From: Hydra vulgaris
Lineage: Eukaryota; Cnidaria; Hydrozoa; Anthoathecata; Hydridae
NCBI RefSeq assembly: GCF_038396675.1
Contig: NC_088920.1
Location: 30,746,001-30,810,000 of the forward strand
Direction: 5' to 3'
DNA: 64,000 bases
Every line of letters begins with the position of its first letter. Within the stretch, counting starts at the first letter, position 1. Both the position numbers and the translations under genes were made by a program. This document shows, in pieces, positions 36,751-37,585 of the stretch. Below the pieces are notes generated by a model. The model was not told where the DNA came from. It ran no database searches and saw nothing but the letters and a program-made list of their open reading frames with translations.

Positions 36751-36842
36751 ATATATATATATATATATATATATATATATATATATATATAATATATATA
36801 TATATATATATATATATATATTTATATATATATATATATATA
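36750..36842. repeat. (TA)n array
   Basis: TA tract joining a direct ribozyme unit on the left and an inverted unit on the right. Confidence 0.95.
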
Positions 36843-36871
36843 ATTAGTAAAAAACACTTATCTAACTTTTA

Positions 36872-36913
36872 TCTTCTACTCGGAGTTTCACCATTGCTGG
36901 ATCATCAGGAAGA
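36872..36913 (-). ncRNA. Hammerhead ribozyme motif, inverted copy
   Basis: On the minus strand: TCTTC, CTGATGA, TCCAGCAATGGT, GAAA, CTCCGAG, TA, GAAGA. It is the mirror image of 36930-36971 and forms with it an inverted repeat reaching about 36841-37000. Confidence 0.7.
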
Positions 36914-36929
36914 GTCATCAGGAGAGAAC

Positions 36930-36971
36930 TCTTCCTGATGATCCAGCAATGGTGAAACTCCGAGTAGAAGA
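36930..36971 (+). ncRNA. Type I hammerhead ribozyme motif
   Basis: The stem I strand TCTTC (36930-36934) pairs with GAAGA (36967-36971). The conserved CTGATGA is at 36935-36941. Stem II is CCA/TGG closed by a GCAA loop, with a U-U mismatch at its base. GAAA is at 36954-36957. A 3-bp stem III (ACT/AGT, loop CCG) leads to the cleavage-site triplet GTA, cutting after 36966. Very short stem III is typical of hammerheads in Penelope-like retroelements and retrozymes. Unconserved stem-I loops were not modelled. Confidence 0.75.
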
Positions 36972-37066
36972 TAAAAGTTAGATAAGTGTTTTTTACTAAT
37001 TAATTATTGCTCTGTTCTTTAAGAACATTGAGCACTCTATTTGTAAAATACACTAACATAATTTAC

Positions 37067-37162
37067 ATATATATATATATATATATATATATATATATAT
37101 ATATATATATATATATATATATATATATATATATATATATTATATATATATATATATATATG
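37067..37162. repeat. (TA)n array
   Basis: TA tract between two oppositely oriented copies of the GTAAATTATGTTAGTGTATT / AATACACTAACATAATTTAC box. Confidence 0.95.
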
Positions 37163-37275
37163 TAAATTATGTTAGTGTATTTTACAAATAGAGATTCTTG
37201 CAGATTAATGATAAAAGCTTGTTGATATGAATGATAAAACATTCATTAATATGAATTGATGTATTGATTGTGGGC

Positions 37276-37317
37276 TCTTCCTGATGATCCAGCGATGGTG
37301 AAACTCCGAGTCGAAGA
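37276..37317 (+). ncRNA. Type I hammerhead ribozyme motif, best copy
   Basis: TCTTC (37276-37280) pairs with GAAGA (37313-37317). CTGATGA is at 37281-37287. Stem II CCA/TGG has a GCGA (GNRA) loop. GAAA follows, then ACT-CCG-AGT stem III and the canonical cleavage triplet GTC, cutting after C37312. It lies 346 bp downstream of the 36930 copy in the same orientation, as expected for tandem ribozyme-bearing elements. The same U-U mismatch at the base of stem II is present. Confidence 0.78.
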
Positions 37318-37346
37318 TAAAAGTTAGATAAGTGTTTTTTACTAAT

Positions 37347-37585
37347 TATATATATATATATATATATATATATATATATGTATATATATATATATATATA
37401 TATATATATATATATATATATATATATATATATATATATATATATATGTATATATATATATATATATTATATATATATATATATATATATATATATATAT
37501 ATATATATATATATATATGTATATATATATATATATATATATATATATATATATATATATATATATATATATATATATATATATA
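37347..37585. repeat. (TA)n array
   Basis: TA dinucleotides with a few TATGTA and TATTATA interruptions, starting right after the ribozyme unit. Confidence 0.95.

Follow-up and report, generated by a model that had tools for sequence, protein, structure and literature searches.

Paired hammerhead motifs in Hydra vulgaris as 5'-truncated ends of a putative Penelope-like element

Background

Hammerhead ribozymes of Penelope-like elements (PLEs) are reportedly the subject of a 2014 paper by Cervera and De la Pena. For the PLE of Anolis, the process of insertion has been described in vitro: reverse transcription starts from two adjacent internal sites, which delimit the tail, cutting and extension occur on both DNA strands, and uncut RNA is the main substrate; as to the start site, the strands were not observed to differ (PMC11167929). 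The arrangement of inverted pLTRs, of which one is tailed, has already been described in rotifers, for whose PLEs self-priming has been proposed (PMC3846280, in the part of the paper available).

Literature searches on PLE, hammerhead and Hydra returned no report that we recognised as dealing with Hydra PLE ribozymes. The main text of the Hydra vulgaris AEP genome paper, in its available part, mentions neither Penelope, nor hammerhead, nor ribozyme (PMC12220107).

Results

Hammerhead motifs and insertions in the window

The analysed DNA, called here the window, is a stretch of 64,000 nucleotides from Hydra vulgaris (contig NC_088920.1, positions 30,746,001 to 30,810,000). An initial annotation, made from the sequence alone, had reported in it three hammerhead motifs, which are borne out when re-read letter by letter, at the positions given in the list below. 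All three are composed of TCTTC, CTGATGA, 12 nt, GAA, ACTCCGAGT, a single base (A, A and C, respectively) and GAAGA; the core is exact, stem I has 5 bp and stem III 3 bp, while stem II has 3 bp, with a U-U at its base. The 31-nt core, searched with up to 3 mismatches, is matched exactly 3 times in the window and never in 100 shuffles. A more complete descriptor, which demands the core, a legal triplet, no fewer than 4 of 5 pairs in stem I, 3 of 3 in stem III and no fewer than 2 of 4 in stem II, selects these three motifs only over the window; any match to it is present in 8 of 200 dinucleotide shuffles (largest number 2, mean 0.05). The outcome was different for the covariance check with Rfam, proposed in the initial annotation: no match reaches the gathering score in the window and, at E <=10 over 36600-37700, there is no hammerhead among the 26 matches.

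The window contains two insertions, both of them head-to-head, together with three relatives that are diverged or partial; every one of these adjoins (TA)n. They are listed with their strand and with the supporting match:

36841..36915, minus strand: short-tailed arm of insertion 1, pLTR positions 2-76 (blastn, 100% over 75 nt to the pLTR of the ORF-bearing L012 copy)
36872..36913, minus strand: hammerhead motif, predicted cut between 36877 and 36876 (core match and descriptor)
36916..36926, no strand: junction filler of insertion 1, 11 nt, with a CATCAGG piece shared with the ribozyme; its last base, G, adjoins AACTCTTC
36927..37070, plus strand: long-tailed arm of insertion 1, 36927 being the putative RNA start (blastn, 100% over 144 nt to the L012 copy)
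36930..36971, plus strand: hammerhead motif, predicted cut after A36966 (core match and descriptor)
37158..37193, minus strand: long-tailed arm of insertion 2, of which the final 36 nt remain (blastn, 100% over 36 nt)
37194..37270, no strand: filler of insertion 2, 77 nt; the sole other match found is on contig C11, 99% identical
37275..37348, plus strand: short-tailed arm of insertion 2 (blastn, 97% over 74 nt)
37276..37317, plus strand: hammerhead motif, predicted cut after C37312 (core match and descriptor)
30055..30201, plus strand: diverged relative, a second-lineage hammerhead (stem III ACA/UGU, imperfect stem I) with a long tail (blastn, 84%)
~36630..36760, plus strand: third-lineage relative, a degenerate hammerhead-like stretch (core CAGATAA) with a long tail (blastn)
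29322..29389, plus strand: lone copy of the 68 nt that separate the short tail end from the long one (blastn, 100% to pLTR 77-144)

The L012 pLTR, matching the long-tailed arm of insertion 1, precedes an ORF piece. By blastn, the relative at ~36630-36760 is 83% identical to the copy at 30050, and its tail is 92% identical to that of the main family. The pieces at 29322-29389, 30055-30201, ~36630-36760 and 37158-37193 had not been named in the initial annotation.

The window motifs are probably the 5'-truncated ends of a Penelope-like element, whose ORF sits elsewhere in the genome. The two plus-strand motifs are indeed 346 bp apart, as first noted, while the tandem unit read from this spacing does not hold: the stretch between them is not repeated, and consists of the long tail of insertion 1, (TA)n and the other end of insertion 2. 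This pair joins two insertions, which carry different marker bases (A,a in one and G,c in the other). The initial annotation was right in reporting hammerhead-type motifs with a very short stem III, of a kind known from PLEs, and no PLE reverse transcriptase is found nearby, in line with the earlier remark: when the window is searched with the ORF by tblastn, a single chance match results (E=8). The suggestion of non-autonomous tandem units, producing circular RNAs, is made highly improbable by the ends flanking an ORF elsewhere, by the scarcity of same-strand pairs and by the differing marker bases. On the whole, the first interpretation is partly supported.

Other repeats are present in the window: a long tandem array at 38666-40728, with a unit of 116-117 bp built on GGCGGATCACTT; an array of 24-bp units at 53476-54316, with a higher-order period of 292 bp; and a 274-bp tandem repeat, in about 3 copies, at 59313-60180. 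Pieces of DDE_1 transposase, each beside an interrupted frame, are found on the minus strand at 8495-8965 (E 1.1e-16) and 24760-25365 (E 5.6e-12). Weak matches, below the curated cut-offs, indicate DUF4371 at 14081-14902 (plus strand, E 4.9e-5) and a ZSWIM RNaseH-like domain at 51067-51426 (plus strand, E 4.9e-4).

A genome-wide family and its ORF

The genome searched, which contains the window, consists of 911,502,276 bases (911.5 Mb) in 15 contigs. Exact copies of the 31-nt ribozyme core number 350, with 169 forward and 181 reverse; the core read backwards has none. A 31-nt tail is found in at least 2000 exact copies, and a related tail in 714, indicating that the family is larger than suggested by the exact cores.

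The 100 core places listed yield 40 pairs of neighbours within 6 kb of each other, of which 36 are head-to-head, 2 plus-plus, 1 minus-minus and 1 tail-to-tail. The gap between head-to-head cores is 11-37 bp in 18 of the 36, and ranges from 102 to 3598 bp in the other 18. Two of the three same-strand pairs are full units, with a tandem length of about 2.50 kb; the third is the 346-bp pair of the window.

The ORF, whole or in pieces of 110 codons or more, is found in 9 of the first 12 long-pair loci retrieved (L009-L017), in seven of them in both arms; in the remaining three (L018-L020) no piece of at least 110 codons is present. L009 features an uninterrupted frame of 723 codons (4377-6545), just upstream of a ribozyme. 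Elsewhere in the genome pLTRs, within which the hammerhead motif is situated, flank the ORF, in tandem or as inverted partial copies. A 283-residue piece of the ORF gives a weak match to RVT_1, below the curated cut-off (E=0.0027, 17.9 bits vs 29.6), and the whole ORF gives none. Reverse-transcriptase motifs of the PLE type may be read by eye, and so may, near the C-terminus, a YIG-containing, GIY-YIG-like pattern, which is seen by eye only: for a GIY-YIG endonuclease, the ORF has no match in Pfam, NCBIfam or PDB. The element is probably a PLE, as judged from the weak RVT_1 match, from the motifs read by eye and from its anatomy (pLTRs, tandem and inverted copies, a tail at one end and a ribozyme in the pLTR).

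A further hammerhead lineage is located near (TA)n at L007, L029, L048, L061, L149 and others, with stem I CATTT/AAATG, stem II ATC/GAT and stem III ACA/TGT. Two near-identical head-to-head insertions, L134 and L139, with the same filler and tails, lie about 14.7 Mb apart on contig C1, which would fit the duplication of a single insertion in its entirety.

Short and long tail ends within head-to-head pairs

Arms end in two ways: in short arms (TA)n is met after ~TTTTTTACTAATTA, in long arms 68 nt later, after CACTAACATAATTTACATA; the two ends are indicated as S and L. All of the 35 head-to-head pairs fetched, out of 36 (the unfetched one being C3:40004012), feature one short and one long outer end; for L009 and L012, where the nearest core belongs to the inner tandem copy, the outer ends were used. 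Seven arms were left unclassed by the script: those of L009, L014, L022, L026, L029 and L019 are all short by reading of the sequence, and that of L058, for which the list gives no paired neighbour, stays unclassed. A second sample was selected by the tail, blind to the ribozyme (75 of 100 places listed); in it, short and long ends are combined in 48 of 52 partnered rows; here the window arm at 37281 is paired with a wrong neighbour. Of the four other rows, three belong to a single locus and to a near-copy of it at a distance of 27 kb (L077-L079), which violate the rule, and one is due to a mis-assigned partner.

The 30 nt beyond the end are TA-rich, as classed by the script, in 47 of the 49 long arms and in 63 of the 74 short ones; target-site duplications are unreadable in (TA)n. 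The S-to-L stretch folds as a strong hairpin (z -3.9). If cDNA primed at L collided with cDNA primed at S on the same RNA, many copies of this stretch alone should be left: exact and (TA)n-joined, only 15 are found genome-wide, and such a collision is unsupported as a common outcome. Bits of ribozyme are present at several junctions elsewhere, in keeping with a kind of end joining that inserts templated patches.

Partner arms resemble each other. In four marker columns they agree in 44 of 50 pairs, a likeness reached by none of 5000 permutations; within one marker type the excess is smaller, as 19 of 5000 permutations are as alike. L134 and L139, likely two copies of one insertion, are both counted in these permutations, as well as in the tail-chosen sample and in the count of G reported below. 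Both arms clearly come from a common source. Since rare variants are in 6 cases shared by both arms, and in 91 private to one of them, this claim stops short of a single RNA molecule for the two.

Putative start of the copied RNA

The 5' ends cluster immediately ahead of the ribozyme, AACTCTTC being their upper limit. Among 117 distinct arms of the main family, 29 have their end precisely at AACTCTTC, 8 nt ahead of the core, and the preceding base is G in 28 of them and A in one. An exact 8-nt end excludes T at the next base, because body copies read GTAACTCTTC, which leaves A and C as the bases against which G can be set. Over the whole genome, AACTCTTCCTGATGATCCAGCAATGGTG is preceded by G in 566 cases, by A in 64 and by C in 16; the GT body form is present in 812 copies. 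Arms shorter by one base (7 nt; T 11, G 4, C 1) or by two (6 nt; T 7, C 4, G 3) have no such G. An unencoded G is as expected if the cDNA ran off a capped RNA. Extra G residues, deriving from cap copying, are seen in L1 copies. PMC4245944, examined for a cap-derived G in L1 copies, contains no such passage. In close pairs, some of the G's may belong to the partner arm. Where the end adjoins (TA)n directly, G is present in 13 of the 78 distinct places listed, T+AACTC in 21 and T+ACTC in 32, as if TA annealing had decided the joins of these 5' ends.

In the tail-chosen sample, 48 of 75 5' ends are located at the ribozyme border, 22 extend into the body, 1 is inside the ribozyme and at most 4 are at the cut site or lower; by eye, the plus arms of L132, L136 and L137, scored at the border, stop inside the ribozyme, and L065, one of the four lowest ends, is a rearranged ribozyme. 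Among ends that adjoin (TA)n directly, the minus strand alone has 55 at the border, as against 6 at the cut site, for which there are 9 distinct places over both strands; the plus-strand count of border ends, 94, includes overlapping forms twice. Easier TA annealing at the border may add to this difference. Were cut RNA the template, arms would start at GAAGAT; the rarity of such ends suggests that the ribozyme was mostly uncut in the copied templates, in agreement with the Anolis result.

The ribozyme fold

Pair formation was evaluated in 78 distinct versions, chosen by core letters only, against 2000 shuffles, which ignore relatedness. None of the shuffles reaches the values observed for stem III pair 3, formed in 73 versions with switches between U-A and A-U (shuffle mean 38.3), for stem II pair 2, also formed in 73 (mean 67.1), and for stem III pair 4, formed in 64 (mean 46.5), where relatedness may explain part of the excess. 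Stem I pair 1 is formed in 68 versions (mean 61.7; reached by 1 shuffle), stem I pair 4 in 58 (51.7; 18 shuffles) and stem III pair 2 in 68 (65.6; 76 shuffles). The remaining six stem pairs are not above the shuffles in the 78 versions: stem II pair 1, formed in 27, is below the shuffle mean of 35.4. The core is kept across lineages with stem III ACU/AGU or ACA/UGU and stem I UCUUC/GAAGA or CAUUU/AAAUG. The lowest-energy folds of four versions, taken alone, include no hammerhead. Support for the ribozyme fold comes from the compensated stem III pair; Rfam, the predicted fold and the base of stem II provide none.

Discussion

We consider it probable that the window contains two head-to-head, 5'-truncated PLE insertions, generated by run-off of capped RNA from the S and L starts. 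A promoter in the pLTR would produce a capped RNA starting at AACTCTTC, with the hammerhead at its extreme 5' end; an enzyme of the element would open (TA)n DNA, and the two DNA ends would each prime reverse transcription at one of S and L, the sites bracketing the hairpin. On the pLTR at the 5' end, both cDNAs would run off the capped end within about 80-150 nt, leaving ribozyme-plus-tail stubs such as those of the window; starting from the downstream pLTR, they would continue into the ORF. End joining would link the two cDNA ends, often with small fillers. Such a mechanism bears on how PLEs insert, and on why they bear hammerheads. Hundreds of similar copies in a simple target suggest two RNA start sites, one per insertion end, and a template consisting of a capped RNA that begins just before the ribozyme. 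Within the limits of the literature searches, what this genome adds is the strict pairing of short and long ends, the G and the uncut templates.

Self-priming, in which either the end of a cDNA or an antisense RNA would fold back to serve as its own template, could also account for the palindromic junctions with short spacers and for the likeness of partner arms. Folding back predicts equal tails, however, whereas a short and a long one are seen in 35 of 35 pairs, and arms may differ in length, as in L010, where they measure 667 and 1201 nt. Self-priming is disfavoured because the two tails differ, and we hold it to be unlikely. The 346-bp distance between two plus copies recalls a retrozyme-like unit, short, non-coding and with ribozymes at both ends, whose circular RNA of about 346 nt is copied back, and small animal hammerheads do occur in such elements (PMC7229834, available part). 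Pairs, however, are head-to-head and not direct in 36 of 40 cases among the 100 core places listed; the 3 same-strand pairs among these 40 include no direct tandem copies of a small unit devoid of the ORF; the 346-bp stretch, joining two insertions, is not a repeat; and starts at the cut site are rare, both in the tail-chosen sample (at most 4 of 75) and among (TA)n-joined ends (9 places, vs 55 border ends on one strand). Orientation and scarcity of cut-site ends lead us to reject the retrozyme unit as highly improbable. Inverted ends and a TA-rich target would be shared by a DNA transposon or MITE whose terminal inverted repeats contained the ribozyme; this is scarcely credible for a family whose two ends differ, one short and one long, whose arms vary in length, with 5' ends stopping at many points of the body, and whose ORF has a weak match to RVT_1 and none to a transposase.

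A different doubt concerns the motif rather than the element, which may be correctly identified and contain a relic that no longer cuts, or a fold merely binding a protein. The lack of an Rfam match, the failure of all four versions to fold alone as a hammerhead, the pair at the base of stem II, present in no more than 27 of 78 versions, and the rarity of cut-site ends all point in this direction. On the other side, stem III pair 3, stem II pair 2 and stem I pair 1 exceed the shuffles (relatedness being ignored), the lineage with stem I CAUUU/AAAUG keeps the core, and the hammerhead of the Anolis PLE does cut, only with its protein (PMC11167929). We regard the loss of cutting as possible, if rather doubtful. 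Stem III may also be viewed in another way: a fourth pair, giving a 9-nt stem III, is impossible within one molecule, because a one-base loop could not hold it. The near-palindromic stem III might join two sister RNAs as a dimer, the hammerhead fold then being as much for pairing as for cutting, a speculation to which we assign little probability. If true, a dimer of capped RNAs from one source would supply the S- and L-started templates for one DNA break.

Comparison with known systems

Read as run-off products of a capped RNA, the Hydra insertions most resemble Poseidon, the PLE of Anolis carolinensis (PAc), with which they share a pLTR with a minimal hammerhead, a two-site tail, an AT-rich target, cutting and extension of the two DNA strands and a main substrate of uncut RNA (PMC11167929). 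Each Hydra insertion has one short and one long end, whereas in PAc the strands were not seen to differ in start site in vitro; the PAc ribozyme overlaps the ORF start, while the Hydra one lies before the ORF. The cap-like G found in Hydra copies is undescribed in the main text on PAc (PMC11167929).

The Penelope families of the rotifer Adineta vaga, as presented in the available part of PMC3846280, also feature inverted pLTRs, one of them tailed, with a palindromic inverted junction, and in both animals head-to-head is the commonest form. The tail is 31 bp in Adineta vaga, to be compared with the 68-nt stretch of Hydra, and the pLTR about 200 bp, vs about 76. Metazoan retrozymes have in common with the Hydra family small type I hammerheads in repeated animal elements; according to the accessible part of PMC7229834, they form direct tandems of 150-450 bp and circular RNAs, whereas in Hydra the motifs are head-to-head ends of an ORF-bearing element. 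The PLE hammerheads of Cervera and De la Pena, as far as covered by the available parts of PMC6155905 and PMC7229834, are similar to the Hydra ones in being minimal, in having little or no helix III and in residing in PLE terminal repeats.
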